Source: an uncultured Lachnospiraceae bacterium (GTDB taxonomy: Bacteria > Bacillota > Clostridia > Lachnospirales > Lachnospiraceae). From it: a stretch of 64,000 bases of DNA. Under the pieces are notes generated by a model that saw only the letters and a program-made list of their open reading frames with translations, was not told the origin of the DNA and did not search any database. Where the stretch lies: assembly GCA_947564735.1 (NCBI GenBank), contig CANOEC010000008.1, forward strand, positions 1 to 64,000, given 5' to 3'. Below, piece after piece: positions 49,681 through 59,076 of this stretch. Within the stretch, counting starts at the first letter, position 1, and the number at the start of each line of letters is the position of its first letter. Made by a program: the position numbers and the translations under genes.

Positions 49681-51177
49681 TCATTCCTTTTTACCCCCCC
49701 CCGCCGGAAAATGCTGCATCTGCGCATTTTTCCGGTACTCGCTTGGCGAAACCCCACAGACGGATTTAAATATTTTCATGAAATGTTTTTCATTTTCATA
49801 TCCAACTTTAGCACTGATTTCAATAATCCTCAGATCCGTTTCATCCAGAAGTCGCTTCGCCTCCTGCATCCGGATCCCCTTCAGATAATTTACAAAATTA
49901 CTTCCCGTATATTCTTTAAAAAGATAGGAAAACAGCGAATAGTTCATGGAAATATGGTTTGAAACCACCGCCATATTCAAATCCTTGTCATAGTTCTCCT
50001 GTATGTAATCGATTGCCTGCTTAATTTTCTGCTGATTTTTATTTGCGTCAAACCGACTGTTGATACGCTCATGAAGCTCCATCACCCACTCCATAAACTC
50101 CGTCTGCCAGACTGCCAAGGCGGGATAGCTATAGTAGTCTGCCAGTTTTATCAAATGGTCATCTTCATCCGTCAGCATATTCCGATAAGTTTTCTTTACC
50201 TCCTTAAAGAAATCATCCATACACCCTGAAAACTCCGCCGGTGTAATCCACTCGTTTTTCACAGCATAAAACAACCCGTTCCAGCCTTTTGCGATTTCCT
50301 CGCTCTTATCCGTACCAAGAAGCTGTACCCTTTGTAATCTCATCTCATCCCCGATGAATTTCTGTCCCTGTTTATGAAACTCTTACGGGATGTGCTTTCC
50401 CTGCTCCCCCGCACGACATATCATCTGATTGGTACAGAAAGCCCGGCGCCTTGCATCCACTGCCTCCCGGTAAGCTGCTCTCATTTCCCGTATTCCGCTG
50501 TGAATTACGCTGATTCCCACATATTCCTGTACCAGTTCGTTTTTCAGGAGAAGCCGGGCATTTTTATCCGACACAAGATACACATCGCATCCTTCCACAT
50601 TGTGCAGATAAATATAGTTTTCTTCCGTCGTCTGTACCGTCTTCGGATTGAGGGCATACACATAATAGGCTTGAAGTGCAAACTCACTTTCATACTCCGA
50701 CTGCATCGTATCAAGTTCCTCTTCCGTAATTTTTTCATTCAGCATCAAATATTTAAACTGCTGGTGTCCGAGACGTTTGCTGGTCTGGCTGTTCTCATGA
50801 TTCTCCACAAGCTCCTGTTCCAGTTTCTTCATGACATCCCATAATTTTTCCCGTTCTATCGGTTTCAACAGAAATTCCCGCACGCCCATGCGCAGCATCT
50901 CCACGGCATAAGAAAAATCGGCGTATCCGCTGACGGCTATGATAATCGGTTTTTCGGGAAGTTCCTGTATTCGTTGCACCAGCTCAATCCCCGTCATTTT
51001 AGGCATACGGATATCCGTGAACATTACATCTACTTTCTGGCTCTGCAGGATTTCGAGAGCCATCTCCCCATTGCCGCATTCCATAATCACCTCGACCGGA
51101 ACACCGCTTCGCTGGATCATCGTCCGTATCCCCTGCCGTATCATCTTCTCATCTTCCACGATCAATATCGTTTTCAT
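49681..51177 (-). pseudogene. yesN: YesN-type AraC response regulator, interrupted by an in-frame stop
   Basis: The receiver (ILIVEDEKMIRQG, phospho-Asp55 in MFTDIRMPK, VSGYADFSYA, LLKPIE) and the C-terminal AraC DNA-binding domain (YIQENYDKDLNMAVVSNHISMNYSLFSYLFKEYTG... KVGYENEKHFMKIFK) are in one frame but separated by a TAA at 50383-50385 (codon 265). Restoring that codon would give a full regulator of about 498 residues. A start codon downstream (50343) might re-initiate the C-terminal part. Its kinase partner yesM lies 6 kb away across the methyltransferase module. A G9 tract occurs near the 3' end. Confidence 0.88.
49694..49702 (-). repeat. G9 homopolymer near the 3' end of yesN
   Basis: Nine C on the plus strand encode the AGGG of the tail PAGGGKKE. 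Slippage here would change only the last few residues of the regulator. Confidence 0.7.
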
Positions 51178-51182
51178 TCCCG
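51172..51182. repeat. 11-bp direct repeat, left end of the inserted module
   Basis: TTTCATTCCCG, identical to 57274-57284. It covers the yesN start codon. The pair brackets the methyltransferase/GHKL module. Confidence 0.7.
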
Positions 51183-51336
51183 CTCCTACTGGTGTCAAGT
51201 AATTGCTACAAATTTTTTCAAATATAATGCTATTGAAATGCGCATATAATATCGACTTCTGATAAATTATATGATGTAACCCCTTTTCTTACAGCATAAC
51301 AAAACAACATGTCGCAGAACACAAAAGGGTTCTCCA

Positions 51337-51365
51337 TTGACTTGACCCGAAACCTAATATAGAAT
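51337..51365 (+). promoter_or_regulatory. Sigma-A promoter of the DNA methyltransferase gene
   Basis: TTGACT (51337-51342) and TAGAAT (51360-51365) with a 17-base spacer, 35 bases before the start codon, which has AAGGAG. An AACCCCTTTT/AAAAGGGTT inverted pair with a wide loop lies just upstream. Confidence 0.75.
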
Positions 51366-51400
51366 ATATATAACATATTTTCTTCCCAAGGAGAAATACA

Positions 51401-52522
51401 ATGGCATATAATAACATTGTCCCCACTGCCATAGATTTGTTCTGTGGTGCTGGCGGTTTATCAAAAGGACTTGAAGACAGCAATATTAATGTAGCATTAG
51501 GCGTTGAAATCAACACTATTGCCACCCAGACATACAACAACAATCTGCCCGGCATTGTTCTGAATTCCAATATATGTGATGTCACAGGTCAACAAATCTT
51601 AGCACGGTTAAACATTCATAAAAATGAATTGTTTCTCCTTGCTGGTTGTCCACCTTGTCAAACATTTTCATCGCTCCAAAAAGACGATGTATCAAATGAT
51701 GCCAGAAACAACCTTATTTTTGAGTACACCAGACTTATCCATGAAACAGAACCATTGTTCATTCTAATGGAAAATGTTCCTGGTCTGCCAAATGGACGCG
51801 GCAAAAAAATTTTTAAAAAAGCCACTACTGAATTGCAAAAGCTTTACCATATAAAATATGATATACTCAATTGTGCTGATTACGGTGTTCCCCAAACTCG
51901 AAAACGTCTGGTACTGCATGGAATCCGGAATGATGTATATGATTTGTTAAAGCAACACAATGCCCGTTTTGAAGTCTCGCTTCCTTCTCAGACTCATACC
52001 AGCGACTCGGAAACAAATCCTACGCTCCTACCATGGGAAACTGTAGGTACTGCATTGGCTACACCACCACTTCCAGATATTGCTGCCGGACAACCTGCAC
52101 CTGCTGGCTATCCAAATCATGAAACAAGCGGACTTAACAATACAAACTTAGAACGCATTCAATATATCCGAGCCCATGGTGGTAGCAGAACTTGTCTGCC
52201 TCCCCACTTACAATTACCTTGCCATCAAAGAGGAAACGTTGGTTACACTGGCGTATATGGAATTATGGATGCTACTAAACCCGCACCGACAATTACAAGT
52301 GGATGTATATTTTTTAGTAAGGGGCGCTATGGACATCCTACACAAGATCGCGCTATTACAATTCGTGAAGCCGCTCGTTTCCAATCATTCCCAGATAATT
52401 TTATTTTCTCTGGAAACCGGTCAGAAGCTGCTTTGCAGGTCGGAAATGCAGTTCCGCCCCGCCTTGCCGCTGCCAGTGGATTTTATTTCTTAAATCTACT
52501 CAATTATATACATTCTCTATGA
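51401..52522 (+). CDS. DNA (cytosine-5-)-methyltransferase
   Basis: A 373-residue C5-cytosine methyltransferase with the ordered motifs: I (DLFCGAGGLSKG, residues 12-23), IV (AGCPPCQTFS, catalytic Cys86), VI (MENVPG, 123-128), VIII (QTRKRLVLHG) and X (QVGNAVPPRLA, from about 346). It transfers methyl from SAM to cytosine in a specific DNA site that cannot be read from sequence. It has its own promoter and converges on the receiver-like gene with only four bases between stops. No restriction nuclease lies beside it. AT-rich codon use matches the module, not the sugar operon around it. Confidence 0.95.
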   Translation: MAYNNIVPTAIDLFCGAGGLSKGLEDSNINVALGVEINTIATQTYNNNLPGIVLNSNICDVTGQQILARLNIHKNELFLLAGCPPCQTFSSLQKDDVSNDARNNLIFEYTRLIHETEPLFILMENVPGLPNGRGKKIFKKATTELQKLYHIKYDILNCADYGVPQTRKRLVLHGIRNDVYDLLKQHNARFEVSLPSQTHTSDSETNPTLLPWETVGTALATPPLPDIAAGQPAPAGYPNHETSGLNNTNLERIQYIRAHGGSRTCLPPHLQLPCHQRGNVGYTGVYGIMDATKPAPTITSGCIFFSKGRYGHPTQDRAITIREAARFQSFPDNFIFSGNRSEAALQVGNAVPPRLAAASGFYFLNLLNYIHSL

Positions 52523-52526
52523 AACA

Positions 52527-54116
52527 TCAGTTTTTATTGGCTGGTGTTTCAGGCAGATGTGCCAACGATATTCCAACTCTATTGCCATCCGCAAATGCCA
52601 TATTAGCCATTCTTTGTGTATAATTTTCTTTCAGAGTACAGATAAACTCCAGTTCGCAATCTTTCCCCATTAGATTTCCTTGTAATGTTCTTCCTTTAAT
52701 TATCTTATAATCTAATATATAAATCGTATTCAGTTTCTTCTTCCATTCAACAGCAATAGATTTTTTATCTTCATAATACAAAAAACTAAAATATTCTTTT
52801 TCTGCATTCTCTAGTGCTTTTCCACTCTTACACTTTATACCTCGAATGAAAATATAATTATTATTTATTTTTTCGGGCCTTCTACAATCACATTTTGCTG
52901 TTACACATAATAAATAGCATTCCTCATTTCCATCCTTATATTTGAATACATCCCCAAAAGAAATAGTATGGTTCATATTAGAAAGTGTTCCATTAATATT
53001 TATCTTAGCATTAAGTTGTATCAAGTCATTAATGATTAAACTTGCAGTTATGCGATCTGCTCTTGCAAGCAATTCTTTTGCAAACAATTCAGGGATGAGA
53101 GCATTTTGTATGTCAATTTGCTGCTCCAATTCCTGCTTATATAGCCCTTTAATAAACAATTCAAACTCATCCCACCCTTCCTCTTCTAACAAGATTTTCG
53201 CATAATATGCAAAAGCGTCAAATGAGATATCGCCAAGAATCTTTGCCCTATGCGTGAGTACCTCCTGAAATTGATTAGAATAATACAAACATATCCCGTC
53301 CATGATACTTCCTGGTGATTCAATAATATTTTGCGCAATTTTAGATATAATATGCTCTGGTGAAATCATATCAGATGTATCCTGTTCATTATTAAGATTT
53401 TTGGAAAAAAAGAAAAATTTTCTCCCATTCACCTCCAAGCCATTGCTTTTTTTATTTGCGACATATTCTCTTTCTGACGGCAAAAGATAACTACACCAAT
53501 CTAAATATAACTTATACCACTCTTCAGAATTCTCATAATTGAATTGTTCCTGATCAATTTCAATACCGAGTTCAATCATTTTCTTTTTCAGCGGTTGAAT
53601 ATTATTTTTTGAACCGCTAAAACATCCTTTTATAATATTTACAAATTCATCTTTTAAAATGCCTAGTTTTTCACATATCTCCGAAATCTGTTTCACTTCT
53701 TCTTTGAAATGCCCAGAATAGTATGCTTTTAATGCATCCTCAATACCCTCTGTATTCTGTTCATTAGTATAAATGCAAATATAAGGAATCTCATTTTTCA
53801 ATGCACAGTTAATGATACCTATTGTATATTCTGGGCGAACCGGCTGAGTCAGCTCCCAATCAATAATAAGTAAATCTTTTTGCTTCATTTTTTTCTCTAA
53901 ATATTCCCACGTATTTTTCAAATTATATGAAACCATTGTAACTGCACATTCACATTCTGTAGAAAGTGCTGTATACATTCTACCAGACAATTCCAATCCC
54001 TTAGCATTACTATCTACCACCTCATATGGTTCCAGAAAATCATCATCAATACAAATAATATTTCTTATTGACTGTTTCACAATATCGCCTAAAATCTGCT
54101 CTTTTGTTTTTTCCAT
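52527..54116 (-). CDS. Receiver-like domain protein of the methyltransferase/GHKL module
   Basis: A 529-residue soluble protein. The N terminus (about 15-125) looks like a divergent receiver: an acidic cluster IICIDDDF (Asp24-26), a second strand ending LLIIDWEL with Asp86 at the phospho-acceptor position, and YICIYTN where the conserved Thr/Ser strand would be. The remaining 400 residues match nothing I recognise; a Cys-containing segment (VTAKCDCRRPEKI) occurs near residue 415. It starts one base after the GHKL gene stop, with GGAG inside that gene's end, so the two are co-translated. I infer that the GHKL protein and this protein signal to each other. No nuclease motif is evident. Confidence 0.6.
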   Translation of the reverse strand: MEKTKEQILGDIVKQSIRNIICIDDDFLEPYEVVDSNAKGLELSGRMYTALSTECECAVTMVSYNLKNTWEYLEKKMKQKDLLIIDWELTQPVRPEYTIGIINCALKNEIPYICIYTNEQNTEGIEDALKAYYSGHFKEEVKQISEICEKLGILKDEFVNIIKGCFSGSKNNIQPLKKKMIELGIEIDQEQFNYENSEEWYKLYLDWCSYLLPSEREYVANKKSNGLEVNGRKFFFFSKNLNNEQDTSDMISPEHIISKIAQNIIESPGSIMDGICLYYSNQFQEVLTHRAKILGDISFDAFAYYAKILLEEEGWDEFELFIKGLYKQELEQQIDIQNALIPELFAKELLARADRITASLIINDLIQLNAKININGTLSNMNHTISFGDVFKYKDGNEECYLLCVTAKCDCRRPEKINNNYIFIRGIKCKSGKALENAEKEYFSFLYYEDKKSIAVEWKKKLNTIYILDYKIIKGRTLQGNLMGKDCELEFICTLKENYTQRMANMAFADGNRVGISLAHLPETPANKN

Positions 54117-54117
54117 T

Positions 54118-57051
54118 TCATTTCTCCATCTTTTGACTTATCACAAAACATGCACCATTTAAGGAATTAAGTAACTTCTCATCCGTCGCATAAATATCCA
54201 TATCAACTGAATTTAGACACTTACGCGCTAAATATAACCCAATTCCTCGTCCTGATGCTTTTTTAGTGTAAAATAGTTCAAAACACTTTTCCAATTCTGA
54301 ATGTGACATCTTAGGACCAGAGTTTAATACTAAAACATCGCTATCTTTTACATCAATTTTAATTACCTTTTCTCCTTGTGCATATGCAACCCAATAAATG
54401 GCATTATTGACAACATTTAAAAAGACGGGAATAATAATAGACTCATAAGATTCTATTTTATAATCTATAAATCTCTCTGTACATATAAAAGAAATATCTT
54501 CTTTATCCATTATACTTTCATAAAAATTTATAATTGTTTCCCTAATAGCTTTTCCCGTAATTGATGTTTTAGTTCGCCGTGTTGTACGGTACATTGGCAT
54601 TAGCATCTTATGATTCGATTCCAAGTGTTGAAATGAAATGCTAAGCGGCTTATATATTTCCTGCACGTTCTCATCTTTGACGGCTATGTTTTTCAAATCT
54701 CTTAGCGCAGATGCAATCTGAGCATACAATACATTAAACTGATGATCTATGACTTCTATCGCCATTCCTACCTGCGCCAACTCATAAAAAGTATCAATCT
54801 TCTTTACAAGCTGAATTTCCTTGCTCTTATACGCTCCCAGCAACTCACCATTTTGAGAATTGATAGAAATACAATTCAATTGTTTCAAAAATGGTTCGTA
54901 TACATCAACATACATATCACGAATTTTATCGACAGTAACATTCATACGATCTGTAATTTCTATTACATTTTCTTCTGTTATTTCCGTAATATGAAGACCT
55001 TGTGGCGCATATTCAAACAAACTTTCCTTATTCTCAAAAATCTTATTATCCACCTCATCACGTATTCGTTGAAATTCAATTGAAATTCTTTCCAAAACAG
55101 CATAAAATTTATTATTCAATTCTTCTTCTACATTAAGGTAATTTTTCTTATATTCCTCCAATAAAATATTTTTCAGTGTATGCTCAGATGCCAATTTCTG
55201 GCTTTCTGACACCTTTTGTTCCAATCCATTTCTTTCGGCTTCATAATCATAAAGAAGGTCGCTTACGGAATCATTACCGGAAAGAGTAATGTTTGATGGA
55301 ATCTTGATTTTTAAGTCCACAATTTCTGACTTTAATCTGCTAAGTTTTTCTAAGATGTCTCTCTTATCAGAATCAATAACTAAACTCTTTTCTATCTGCT
55401 CATTAAGTTTTCTCTTTATTTCATTAAATTCTACCTTTTTATCCGCAATCTTTGACCTGCTAGCTATGATTTCTTTGCGTATCTGAACTACTGCCTGATA
55501 ATTTCTTTTCTTTTCCTCCTGAATTAACCTCTCTTGCTTTTGTTCTCTTTTCTTTTCCTCCAGAATGTCCTTTCTTTGTTGTGCTTGAGATCCATATTTA
55601 TCAATAGCAATTTTTTTAAAAAATTCCACCAAAAGAAACTTCATTGCTCTATACGCGTCATTTGCAACAAATCCTTCCCTGCCGGATTTGTCAATCAACT
55701 TTTGATTTCCTTCTTTAGAAATTCCGACATATCCAAACATCTTACGATGACTAAAGTAATAATATCCTGCACCATATGATCGTCTCTTTTCAAATTCCAG
55801 GAAATCAAAATCTGTTCTTCCATAAGGAAGTACACGAAATCCATCTCGGTAAACATATAAACCACTGTATGTTTCGCCCTTATTCTCATACATATGCCAT
55901 TTTTCAATATTCATAGTTGTATTATTTTGTGCCCCCTCCCAAAAAGCCATTTTTAATCTTAACCTTCCAGGAGATGTTCTTGGCTTTTTTCTTGGAGCAA
56001 ATGTATAGTTTTCTATTTTTCCCCATACTTTTATGTTGCCTTGGAAATTTCCAGATTCATCAAATTCGCCATCAATCCAATTTTCACAATTTTCAAAATC
56101 TTCTTCATCAAAAAAATCTTTTAACTCTAAAAAATCATATTCATTTCCGTTTGATGTGTATATCTTAAAACTTGGCGATTCTTTCCAATCATTACCAAGA
56201 ATCTCCCGTCTGTCCTCTATCAATGCCTTGTCAAATGGATTAAATAAGCCTGAAAGAGCTGATCTCACATATTTTGTCCGTTCAGACATTTCCTCACGAT
56301 CCTCAATTAGATTGTCCTTCTGCTCATCCTCAAGCCAAATCAGTTCATCAATTGGATCAAATATCACGAAAAAAGTGCCATGCCCATAATGCTCAAAATG
56401 TTCTCTAATTCTATCGTATATTGCTTTAGGTATGCGATGATATTTTACCAAATCATCCATAATATCATTTTTTAGCTTCGAAAAATGCTCCCATGATTTG
56501 CTATCAAAATTTTTCATATATTGCTTCTGTAACCGTTTATAATGATTGTCCAAATCAGACAAATCATGAAATTCTTCTATAGGAACCTCAACCTCATCCA
56601 GATATAACTCATAATTTTCCATTGCCCGCCAATTCATAAATACCATCTGATACGGTTCCATCTGTTTCTTAGATAGCATAAGCATATGATTTCCAAGATA
56701 AGTTACAGACAATCTACCAATACCCTTTTCACCTAACGGTATACGCTCTTTCTTTCCAAAACGCTCTTCCACAGATACTGTACACGTCATTATATCTCTT
56801 TTACTCTCTGTGCCTATCACAATCCACTTTTCCAGAATATCTGTCTTCCCCATTCCAAAGCCATCATCCGATATTGTAAATACATCTGATACCACGTCCT
56901 TATACCCCGATCTATAGAGAGCGGCATCTAGATAATCCCCATAGGCATCATAACCATTTTTCCACAATTCCGTAATTGCTGTTGGTAAATCTGCAATTTG
57001 GTTTCTGCCGAGCAAATCAATTGCTCTGGCTTTTGTTCTAAAATTTGCCAT
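54118..57051 (-). CDS. Large protein with two GHKL ATPase domains (MORC/Hsp90-like N terminus, histidine-kinase-like C terminus)
   Basis: A 977-residue protein. N-terminal GHKL ATPase: AITELWKNGYDAYG (Glu28, Asn32, Asp35), SDDGFGMG (61-68), GEKGIGR (108-114), the pattern of Hsp90/MutL/MORC ATPases. A middle domain follows, then a long coiled coil (about 490-690). A DHp-like helix has VIDHQFNVLYAQ (His770), and a C-terminal histidine-kinase-type ATPase has NVVNNAIYW (879-887), LVLNSGPKM, FELFYTKK and GRGIGLYLARK (934-944). There are no membrane helices. The start at 57051 has AAGGAG. It is paired with the receiver-like gene and, convergently, the methyltransferase; probable role in DNA surveillance or defence signalling (inference). 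Confidence 0.8.
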   Translation of the reverse strand: MANFRTKARAIDLLGRNQIADLPTAITELWKNGYDAYGDYLDAALYRSGYKDVVSDVFTISDDGFGMGKTDILEKWIVIGTESKRDIMTCTVSVEERFGKKERIPLGEKGIGRLSVTYLGNHMLMLSKKQMEPYQMVFMNWRAMENYELYLDEVEVPIEEFHDLSDLDNHYKRLQKQYMKNFDSKSWEHFSKLKNDIMDDLVKYHRIPKAIYDRIREHFEHYGHGTFFVIFDPIDELIWLEDEQKDNLIEDREEMSERTKYVRSALSGLFNPFDKALIEDRREILGNDWKESPSFKIYTSNGNEYDFLELKDFFDEEDFENCENWIDGEFDESGNFQGNIKVWGKIENYTFAPRKKPRTSPGRLRLKMAFWEGAQNNTTMNIEKWHMYENKGETYSGLYVYRDGFRVLPYGRTDFDFLEFEKRRSYGAGYYYFSHRKMFGYVGISKEGNQKLIDKSGREGFVANDAYRAMKFLLVEFFKKIAIDKYGSQAQQRKDILEEKKREQKQERLIQEEKKRNYQAVVQIRKEIIASRSKIADKKVEFNEIKRKLNEQIEKSLVIDSDKRDILEKLSRLKSEIVDLKIKIPSNITLSGNDSVSDLLYDYEAERNGLEQKVSESQKLASEHTLKNILLEEYKKNYLNVEEELNNKFYAVLERISIEFQRIRDEVDNKIFENKESLFEYAPQGLHITEITEENVIEITDRMNVTVDKIRDMYVDVYEPFLKQLNCISINSQNGELLGAYKSKEIQLVKKIDTFYELAQVGMAIEVIDHQFNVLYAQIASALRDLKNIAVKDENVQEIYKPLSISFQHLESNHKMLMPMYRTTRRTKTSITGKAIRETIINFYESIMDKEDISFICTERFIDYKIESYESIIIPVFLNVVNNAIYWVAYAQGEKVIKIDVKDSDVLVLNSGPKMSHSELEKCFELFYTKKASGRGIGLYLARKCLNSVDMDIYATDEKLLNSLNGACFVISQKMEK

Positions 57052-57273
57052 ACCATTTCCGCTCCTTATGGGATTGTTTCCCAACAACTATATCTACAAA
57101 AAAATTTTTCGAAAACTCTCTCAAAAATACCTTCTTATATCAATTGTATCAGAAAAAAGTTCTAATGAACAGAATTTGTGCTATTTTATCAAAATTATAC
57201 CAATTCCAGCGCAAGCGTCTAATCCCCAAAATATCTGATTCGAGTATTTCCAGTTCTATCATGGAACTCCATA

Positions 57274-57284
57274 TTTCATTCCCG
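57274..57284. repeat. 11-bp direct repeat, right end of the inserted module
   Basis: TTTCATTCCCG, identical to 51172-51182, 14 bases below the yesM stop. On the minus strand it is preceded by GAGGAATC, which looks like the original ribosome site of yesN. Confidence 0.7.
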
Positions 57285-57297
57285 ATTCCTCTTTCCA

Positions 57298-59076
57298 TTA
57301 ACGCCGCATCGGCACCCGCACCGTAACCTTCGTATAGCAGCCCAATTTAGAATCAATTTCAATTCCGTACCTCTCTCCGAAACTCATGCGTATTCTGTCC
57401 TGTACATTCTTTAAACCGATTCCGTTACCCGCACCTCCGCTCGTCTCAATCTCACCCGCTATCTTTTTCCTCAGACTTTCTACTTCTTCCTCGCTCATGC
57501 CCCTTCCAGCATCCGTAATCTCAATCATACAGTCTTCATCTCTTACGATACCCTTGATATAAATGTTGGTGTCTTCCGCAAGTTCCTCAATCCCATGGCA
57601 GATTGCATTCTCAACCACAGGCTGCAGCGACATTTTCGGAATCTCCTGCTTCAAGACTTCTTCCGGTATATTCAGGGACAGATAGATTTCATAATCAAAA
57701 CGCAGGTTGATCAAAGCCAGATAATTCCTGATATATTCGATTTCTTCCTCTACGATCACATTGTTCGACACCCATTTCATACTGTAACGAAGCAGGCTGC
57801 CAAGCGATGTGATTGCGTCCGAAATGGCATACTCCTCATCAATCTCCGCCATCATCTTAATTGACTCAAGCACATTATAGATAAAATGAGCGTTAATCTG
57901 ATTCTGCAGCGCACGAATCTGGGAGTTTTTTGCCAAAATCTCCCTGTCGATATTTTCCTTCATAAGCTGCTCGATGTAATCCAGCATCTTATTGATCTGG
58001 ATACCTAACTCTCCCATTTCATCGTTTCCGCAATTCTCAATCCTAACGCTTAAATCTCCCTTTTGTATCATACGTATGGATTTTAAAATATCATAGAACT
58101 GCCGCAGAAGACGCGTCACAATATAATTGATCAGAAACGACAGTCCGATCATGATCACAATCATAATCGCAATAAAACTGCTCCGCATCCAAAACACATA
58201 ATGTATGCTTTCCGAGATATTTTTGACAGACAAAAGCGCCCCCTGCATTTCACGAATATATAAATAGGAGACAACAAGATGCTCCCTGCCTTGTTTCATA
58301 TACTCCGTATGGATGCCGTCTTTCTCAAGCCCGTCTTCAATCAGGGCACGTACAAACTCCCCAGAAATTTCCTGCCCATTATCGCCAAAATACAGTTCAC
58401 CCTCATCCGCAATAAAACAGCTCCACTCATCCGCAATATCCTCATACAGCATCGGAAACATGTTTTCCATTGTGACCGCTGTCTCAATCACACCGATACG
58501 ACCATTCTCATAATCCTCTACATTTGTTACCAGAGAAGCGATTGCCGTCACGCCGTAATCGTCAAACAGTTTATCCTGATAATTGTAATTCCAGCCAGCA
58601 TAGTCCCTTTTCTTCGACCATTCCATTTTGTCCATGCGGGAATGGCTGTATAGAATCGGCATCATCTCCTGCACATTGTCATTTACCGTGTAAACACGTA
58701 CTCCATACAACAGCGTATTGTTATAGACAAGCCGTTCCAGTGATGCAATATCGGAATGGTAAAATTCCATCAATTCCGTGGTTTCCAACTTCTCCCTGCG
58801 GGCTGCTTTGGCAAGCATCTTCAGCAACGATTCATCATTCAGAAAGAATTGTGTCGTCATATTGATGGAATCAATATTCTTGCGAACATTATCTTCGCCG
58901 CGTTTCATGATATACTGCATATAATTTCTATTCTCACTGATCACATTCTGCTCCATATTGTAAAACAAAAGCCCCGCCAATATGGAAATCGGCATAATTA
59001 CAAGAAGAATAATGACAAGCGTAAACTTTCTATTCAGTTTTAATCCGTTCCAGAATTTCTTCCAACGCTTTTCCAT
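57298..59076 (-). CDS. yesM: YesM-type sensor histidine kinase
   Basis: The 592-residue kinase has membrane helix 1 (about 18-40), an extracellular sensor region (about 42-280), membrane helix 2 (about 295-318), HAMP, the His_kinase block LQNQINAHFIYNVLESIKMM (phospho-His in NAHFIYN) and a HATPase domain with VVENAICHGIEE, DAGRGMSEEE and GNGIGLKNV. YesM kinases sense sugars outside the cell and phosphorylate YesN-type regulators that turn on carbohydrate transport. It starts three bases after the upstream lipoprotein gene. Its natural partner yesN is displaced by the inserted module. Confidence 0.93.
   Translation of the reverse strand: MEKRWKKFWNGLKLNRKFTLVIILLVIMPISILAGLLFYNMEQNVISENRNYMQYIMKRGEDNVRKNIDSINMTTQFFLNDESLLKMLAKAARREKLETTELMEFYHSDIASLERLVYNNTLLYGVRVYTVNDNVQEMMPILYSHSRMDKMEWSKKRDYAGWNYNYQDKLFDDYGVTAIASLVTNVEDYENGRIGVIETAVTMENMFPMLYEDIADEWSCFIADEGELYFGDNGQEISGEFVRALIEDGLEKDGIHTEYMKQGREHLVVSYLYIREMQGALLSVKNISESIHYVFWMRSSFIAIMIVIMIGLSFLINYIVTRLLRQFYDILKSIRMIQKGDLSVRIENCGNDEMGELGIQINKMLDYIEQLMKENIDREILAKNSQIRALQNQINAHFIYNVLESIKMMAEIDEEYAISDAITSLGSLLRYSMKWVSNNVIVEEEIEYIRNYLALINLRFDYEIYLSLNIPEEVLKQEIPKMSLQPVVENAICHGIEELAEDTNIYIKGIVRDEDCMIEITDAGRGMSEEEVESLRKKIAGEIETSGGAGNGIGLKNVQDRIRMSFGERYGIEIDSKLGCYTKVTVRVPMRR

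Follow-up and report, generated by a model that had tools for sequence, protein, structure and literature searches.

The locus

The locus described here lies in a window of 64,000 nucleotides (nt), the whole stretch of DNA that was analysed, which comprises positions 1 to 64,000 of the forward strand of contig CANOEC010000008.1 from an uncultured Lachnospiraceae bacterium (assembly GCA_947564735.1). It consists of a gene for a C5-cytosine DNA methyltransferase (MTase) and two genes facing it, one for a protein with a receiver-like N terminus (RR), the other for a protein with two ATPase domains of the GHKL type (HK). All three open reading frames (ORFs) are intact and uninterrupted, at the coordinates given them in an earlier reading made from the letters alone (the sequence-only reading):

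51401..52522, plus strand: C5-cytosine DNA methyltransferase (MTase), 373 residues; Pfam DNA_methylase 2.3e-61, PADLOC MTase_II 1.3e-87
52527..54116, minus strand: Response_reg_2 receiver-like protein (RR), 529 residues; identified by Pfam, alignment and AlphaFold2 model
54118..57051, minus strand: HEF_HK dual-GHKL protein (HK), 977 residues; identified by Pfam, AlphaFold2 model, Foldseek and alignment

The HK and RR genes are separated by 1 nt; the MTase and RR genes, which are convergent, lie 4 nt apart. The ORF listing starts HK at a TTG codon at 57087 (989 residues); the start taken by the sequence-only reading, an ATG at 57051 with AAGGAG upstream (977 residues), is nevertheless the better one, because the HK of the closest relative, L011, begins with MANFRTKARA. 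Residue numbers of HK follow the 989-residue frame, from which 12 is subtracted for the 977-residue protein; His782 is thus His770 of the protein. The MTase carries the strings DLFCGAGG, PPCQ, ENV, QTRKR and GNAVPP, which we take to be motifs of its family. A classical restriction nuclease is absent, as had been stated from the letters: none of the three proteins has a nuclease domain in Pfam, the rest of the insertion in which they lie contains no other convincing ORF, and no cognate restriction endonuclease was found, the search elsewhere in the genome being for Vsr only.

HK joins a MORC-like ATPase to a histidine kinase

The domains of HK follow one another in this order:

54118..57051, minus strand: N-terminal MORC/Hsp90-like GHKL domain with S5-like part; coiled coil; paired HEF_HK helices carrying His770; ATPase domain of histidine-kinase type at the C terminus

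Pfam recognizes HATPase_c_3 (2.6e-9, residues 36-176), HEF_HK (4.7e-23, 772-838) and HATPase_c (2.6e-9, 887-984); HEF_HK scores 81.9 bits against a cut-off of 24.1, and the two ATPase domains flanking it are both above cut-off. The AlphaFold2 model (mean predicted local distance difference test, pLDDT, 83.2; predicted template-modelling score, pTM, 0.62) has 425 Foldseek matches at E <= 1e-3, the best 50 of which all belong to the MORC/SMCHD1/Hsp90 type (MORC2, MORC3, MORC4, SMCHD1, Hsp90/TRAP1) or to the histidine kinases (a FixL chimera, CpxA, ZraS, HK853), with E-values of 2e-9 to 2e-7. Matches of the MORC/Hsp90 type span about 490-550 alignment columns; the S5-like part is assigned from them. 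Domains and fold matches of both types thus bear out the proposal that two GHKL domains occur in one chain.

Relatives were collected by scanning an HK alignment against 84,980 species genomes, which gave 226, of which 80 were kept; with 7 viral contigs, 3 plasmids, 1 phage-labelled record and the window itself, they make up 92 loci. Because exact peptide patterns from the N-terminal half of HK seeded the scan, proteins holding these patterns are over-represented in the sample. Among the 62 aligned HKs (here as in all such counts, the window is included), His782 is invariant, as are N891 and N895 of the N-box and the glycines G946, G948 and G950 of the C-terminal ATPase. In the N-terminal GHKL domain, N44, D74, G76, G78, G119, K121, G122 and G124 are each conserved in 62 of 62; the patterns used for fetching include residues 37-44 or 422-429, so conservation there is partly due to selection, while other positions are unaffected.

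RR carries a receiver domain and a conserved C-terminal barrel

The receiver-like N terminus proposed for the 529-residue protein is a Response_reg_2 domain (8.4e-16, residues 16-147; 59 bits against a cut-off of 27). The AlphaFold2 model (mean pLDDT 90.4, pTM 0.86) shows a receiver fold, a helical middle and a C-terminal β-barrel:

RR residues about 16-240: receiver domain (D24, D25, D86, T117, K239)
RR residues 253-373: helical region
RR residues about 385-510: β-barrel (G388, C404, C409-D410, R513-G515)

The pocket residues are conserved over the 82 aligned RRs as D24 (82), D or E25 (80), D86 (82), T or S117 (82) and K239 (82), which matches a working receiver pocket. His770 of HK and Asp86 of RR, which the sequence-only reading had named as donor and acceptor of a phosphate, are therefore both invariant. 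The barrel is conserved to a similar degree, with G388 and C409 in 82 of 82, G515 in 81, R513 in 79, and C404 and D410 in 78 each; as C409 is invariant, the barrel is kept with or without an accessory gene after RR.

The fold of RR has no Foldseek match at E <= 1e-3 in either the PDB or a second library; its receiver part matches RcsB from E = 0.017. An alignment of the barrel against the sequences of solved structures returned two chains (E 1.3 and 1.4), judged to be chance. One reading of the barrel is that of a toxin triggered by restriction-modification: it would be a MazF/PemK-like RNase, freed by loss of methylation or by the entry of unmarked DNA, and would stop growth. MazF-type endoribonucleases occupy ranks 3-5 of the PDB matches (1ub4, 5xe3, 5ck9; probability 0.98-0.99, template-modelling score by target 0.53-0.54), and in the second library an entry called 'Endoribonuclease', a viral protein, stands at rank 4 (probability 0.96, E 0.04). 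However, the E-values of the MazF-type matches are only about 0.02-0.04, and the Foldseek output gives no ranges, so their placement on the barrel is presumed. Compared profile to profile with 29 sequences of the MazF family, the barrel scores 13.7, where 60 shuffles have a mean of 9.4 and a maximum of 21.4, and a second profile-profile test is negative too. The catalytic pair of MazF is an arginine and a threonine, from which the conserved C404, C409, D410 and R513 of the barrel differ. MazF homology, suggested by Foldseek and unsupported by both profile-profile tests, is thus retained only as a rival, and we consider an RNase toxin improbable.

Relationship to described systems

The trio had been put forward as undescribed. 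This does not hold: the association of HEF_HK, Response_reg_2 and a C5 methylase was published in 2021 (Bellieny-Rabelo et al., PMC8011034), and both domains are Pfam families (PF19191 and PF19192, respectively). In its accessible passages, that paper names the two domains, reports 91.6% linkage over 644 regions and frequent C5 methylase neighbours, with Vsr and HNH neighbours as well, and proposes a two-component-like system derived from paraMORCs, with a possible role in the control of restriction-modification. The trio in the window has both domains, the core histidine, adjacency (1 nt) and a C5 methylase neighbour, so that it is almost certainly a mobile HEF_HK/Response_reg_2 module. As far as those passages describe it, the published module also shares with it an RR without known domain past the receiver and the architecture HATPase_c_3, HEF_HK, HATPase_c (group 1 there, 174/222), but differs in that the MTase of the window and of L011 is downstream and convergent, not upstream and co-directional. 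New relative to the same passages are the insertion between direct repeats, the co-divergence of the three proteins, the exchange of the MTase, the survey of the slot after RR, and the RR model with its conserved C/CD/R barrel; relative to the sequence-only reading, they are the Pfam families, the repeats as a signature of insertion and the extra nuclease-type gene of relatives.

The N-terminal half of HK connects it to the paraMORC GHKL ATPases found in restriction-modification operons (Iyer et al., 2008, PMC2292703). By its N-terminal ATP motif residues (62 of 62) and its MORC/Hsp90 fold matches HK is of this kind, and the accessible parts of that paper likewise describe an N-terminal GHKL and S5-type ATPase near cytosine methylases, Vsr and HNH genes. 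They differ in that the word 'receiver' occurs nowhere in the text and the histidine-kinase half is unnamed in the passages available, and in that the insertion in the window is without a superfamily II helicase. Type II restriction-modification systems share with the trio a dedicated C5 MTase, mobility and, in relatives, linkage to Vsr and HNH; they differ from it in that the window insertion is without a restriction endonuclease and its other two proteins are of signalling type.

Detocs is a two-component-like phage defence system of a histidine kinase and receiver proteins; to our knowledge, it has neither a methylase nor a MORC-like ATPase, and its effector is a nucleoside phosphorylase. 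Two further candidates were considered and set aside. The DefensePredictor paper (PMC13092281) names HATPase and REC in a figure legend on predicted systems, where identity with this system could not be confirmed from the parts accessible, and the GHKL-Shedu protein of PMC12137116, as described in the accessible part of that source, is different from an HK-RR pair.

Linkage, co-divergence and exchange of the MTase

The trio is conserved together across phyla, as the sequence-only reading required of it: RR and the MTase are each found in 87 of the 92 loci. RR is missing in L013, L054, L062 and L068, where the contigs end at or inside HK, and in the 6-kilobase (kb) phage-labelled L007; the MTase is missing in L012, L013, L055 and L007, where the flank is short on one side or both, and in L020. 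In 83 of the 92, no more than 120 nt separate the edge of RR from HK, and in 76 of the 81 complete trios the MTase is at most 300 nt away from HK or RR. Distances between the proteins of these 81 trios are correlated (HK-RR 0.93, HK-MTase 0.83, RR-MTase 0.77; none of 999 permutations exceeds 0.19), as they are when only the 51 trios nearest the window are taken (0.86, 0.64 and 0.56, respectively). Distances between taxa carry shared ancestry, so this correlation denotes joint inheritance, not contact.

The place of the MTase is less constant. It is upstream and co-directional in 71 of the 81 trios, downstream and convergent in 8 (the window and L011 included), and downstream and co-directional in 2; the downstream-convergent label changes 6 times on the MTase tree, at least 5 of these changes being forced by starred branches. 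The MTases of the window and L011, 74% identical to each other, form a long branch apart from those of the nearest Bacteroidota HK relatives. An exchange is clearest in L027, which has 82% identity to its nearest HK relative, L037, in HK and 66% in RR, and 33% in the MTase; identity of the MTase is also low in L079, L095 and L063, where it is less clear because the HKs are too distant (about 50%). L020 keeps HK and RR but has no C5 methylase in its 13.4 kb, of which 2.5 kb precede HK and 8.0 kb follow it; 161 nt past the RR gene is an ORF of 995 residues for a methylase of the N6_Mtase/Eco57I/MmeI type (type IIG-like, adenine). The MTase slot is thus exchangeable, being swapped in L027 and filled by an adenine-type replacement in L020. 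An RR that cut DNA at the MTase's own site should not tolerate swaps; HK and RR are therefore probably without sequence specificity.

Distribution and insertion into the host

Members of the HK family occur in Bacteroidota, Pseudomonadota, Bacillota, Campylobacterota, Myxococcota, Planctomycetota, and also on contigs from a viral collection. In the phylum of the window the receiver family is rare, and the trio is a rare Bacillota member: PF19192 is matched in 1 of 398 phylum genomes, the window's own, and, at E <= 0.001, in 3 of 99 relatives, above cut-off only in the window's own genome, and PF19191 in 3 of 392 genomes of the order at E <= 0.001, two of them, including the window's own, above cut-off. 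All seven viral-collection contigs with HK (L091-L097) also have RR and the MTase, and the PHROG family phrog_8137 matches the window's HK at 1.5e-79; prophages may thus spread the module. When plasmids were searched for the RR protein by itself, no match was obtained; in the three plasmid loci opened through HK matches, the RR gene is annotated beside HK in each, so that a search by RR alone misses loci, this protein diverging too fast.

In the window, the trio is a mobile module that the host acquired as an insertion:

51183..57273, no strand: acquired insertion between direct repeats, 6.1 kb; from GC profile and empty-site comparison
51172..51182, minus strand: 11-base-pair (bp) direct repeat, right copy; overlaps the 5' end of the gene for the host response regulator
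57274..57284, minus strand: 11-bp direct repeat, left copy; shortly past the host histidine kinase's stop codon

The span chosen by the sequence-only reading coincides exactly with the stretch between the two repeats, which, standing at both junctions, are a signature like that of a target-site duplication; such duplications are reported for moving restriction-modification systems in the accessible part of PMC3031569. In 1-kb windows, the HK and RR genes have a guanine-plus-cytosine (GC) content of 0.31-0.35 and the MTase gene one of 0.38-0.42, whereas the flanks, taken from 40 kb up to the end of the window, lie at about 0.41-0.51. The insertion interrupts a host operon, between the gene for an ordinary histidine kinase (57298-59076) and that for a response regulator of the AraC type, which runs from about 51178 down to 49681. 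This host kinase was sought in 26 of 60 same-genus genomes and matched (E <= 1e-80) in 8; all 8 loci are uninterrupted, the matches on the kinase side and on the regulator side ending at most 155 bp apart. Inside the insertion there is no transposase or integrase ORF and there are no obvious terminal inverted repeats.

The module can be read in two other ways. It could be a stabilizing, addiction-like element that kills or stalls cells losing the methylase, which would explain mobility better than phage defence does and would suit the insertion with direct repeats, the patchy distribution (PF19192 in one phylum genome of 398) and the behaviour of which restriction-modification systems are capable, as discussed in accessible passages of PMC8011034. 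Sequence alone cannot separate this from defence; L020, however, keeps HK and RR without a C5 methylase in 13.4 kb, although another methylase adjoins, and we give such an element a low probability. Lower still is that of decayed passenger DNA, functionless in its present host: it would account for the rarity, the foreign composition and the lack of a nuclease partner in the insertion, but the three ORFs are intact, and the residues of the phosphorelay and of the N-terminal ATPase are kept.

The host response regulator (49681-51198, minus strand) has an in-frame stop near 50383, which leaves ORFs of 271 and 220 codons; in the 4 relatives examined it is a single open frame of about 490 residues, with 83.6% identity to L098 over 493. 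Split by this stop, the regulator may leave the host two-component system inactive after the insertion.

A variable slot after RR

Many relatives carry an additional gene past RR. Besides the window there are 91 loci, 5 of them without RR and 4 ending too soon, leaving 82 in which the slot can be tested with mechanically called ORFs: a co-directional ORF follows within 300 nt in 35, the MTase is next in 6, no ORF is called in 3, and the remaining 38 have other arrangements. Pfam assigns the 35 slot ORFs to Vsr (6), HNH_2 (6), AAA_15 (5), NOV_C (3), HNH (2) and AAA_22 (2), with single cases of Mrr_cat, HEPN_AbiU2, N6_Mtase/Eco57I and a transposase; some of the others, scanned singly, gave no Pfam family. 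Anywhere in the 91 loci, a Vsr-like cluster occurs in 27 and an HNH_2-type cluster in 13, the name Vsr having been checked on the cluster representative, on L058 and L059 and by the Pfam count of the slot. No family past RR is constant among loci, and a single defining nuclease is thus rejected. The window insertion has no fourth gene; in its 3 nearest relatives (L011-L013), a gene of the Vsr-like cluster lies close by.

Several further genes stand near these loci. Beside the L011 trio (L011:92-7949) is a restriction-type cluster with a second C5 methylase and Vsr. It presumably also contains McrBC-like, Mrr-like and DUF1016-like genes. The window's genome has another C5 methylase on contig G000:C3:129545-132029 and, at about 1.4 kb from it, a Vsr gene. 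ORFs after or facing RR in L041 (12524-14185, 553 residues), L049 (12552-13715, 387 residues) and L072 (12746-14680, 644 residues) belong to no Pfam family and are candidates for uncharacterized effectors.

Restriction-type neighbours at part of the loci would also suit a regulator, that is, a soluble two-component system controlling the expression or activity of the methylase and of neighbouring restriction genes, with the barrel as an ordinary output domain, neither toxin nor nuclease. The relay residues are conserved in both proteins, and the authors of PMC8011034 suggest this role in its accessible passages. However, Pfam finds no DNA-binding output domain in RR, nor is there one for its C-terminal part among the fold matches listed; the insertion offers only the MTase as a target, which is transcribed convergently; and the MORC-like half of HK would be left unexplained. 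A regulator of this kind is rather unlikely.

A model for the module

Taken as a whole mechanism, the trio is most likely a phosphorelay-controlled, restriction-modification-like defence module, to which we assign a probability of roughly 45%. The MTase, judging by its family, would mark the host genome. HK would act as a dimer, its N-terminal ATPase, matched in fold to MORC, serving as an ATP-gated DNA clamp by analogy with MORC and MutL, and this clamp would distinguish host-marked from unmarked or invading DNA. On a positive signal, the C-terminal kinase half would phosphorylate His770, from which the phosphate would pass to Asp86 of RR, both conserved residues. Phosphorylation of RR might then release the C-terminal β-barrel, either as the effector or as an adaptor for the variable nuclease that adjoins it in many relatives; the copy in the window, which has no nuclease neighbour, would depend on the barrel. 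Detection of unmarked DNA would end in defence or in growth arrest. In its fullest form, a phosphorelay-gated restriction-like system in which a MORC clamp-kinase reports the state of modification, the barrel is a new effector enzyme with its site at C404, C409-D410 and R513, and the slots for C5 or adenine MTase and for an accessory nuclease are exchangeable, the proposal is doubtful.

Several observations weigh against the defence module. The aspartate of the D-x-G motif in the C-terminal kinase is Asn in 44 of 62 HKs, including that of the window, and Asp in 18; the residue following His782 is Gln in 17 (again including the window), Glu in 44 and Asp in 1; judged from the residues, both the Asn and the Gln variants could weaken canonical kinase chemistry. 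Correlated distances reflect shared ancestry too, and are no proof of contact. With an exchangeable MTase, HK and RR are not locked to one recognition sequence, and a read-out of methylation is hard to explain. No co-directional accessory gene lies directly past RR in 47 of the 82 testable relatives. The RR barrel of the window has no Pfam family at E <= 0.1, and 68 barrels give scattered weak matches only, the commonest being DUF1815 in 4 (best 0.0023), with no PemK. PADLOC (2023) has no match for the RR or HK of the window; over the 82 RR sequences it returns four models with one member each (best 1.6e-4), and for 8 chosen HK relatives 5 partial matches, 4 of them to the REase_II model over the N-terminal GHKL part. 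Finally, no experimental study of HEF_HK/Response_reg_2 function was found in the open-licence literature.

If the phosphorelay-gated restriction-like system is real, two-component signalling would be wired directly to the discrimination of self from non-self DNA, bacteria would have a route that couples the state of DNA methylation to a classical phosphate relay, and the MORC-type ATPases of prokaryotes would gain a defined signalling output. Few constructs would suffice to test the model, given the conserved residues, the exchanged MTase of L027 and the adenine methylase that stands in for a C5 enzyme in L020.

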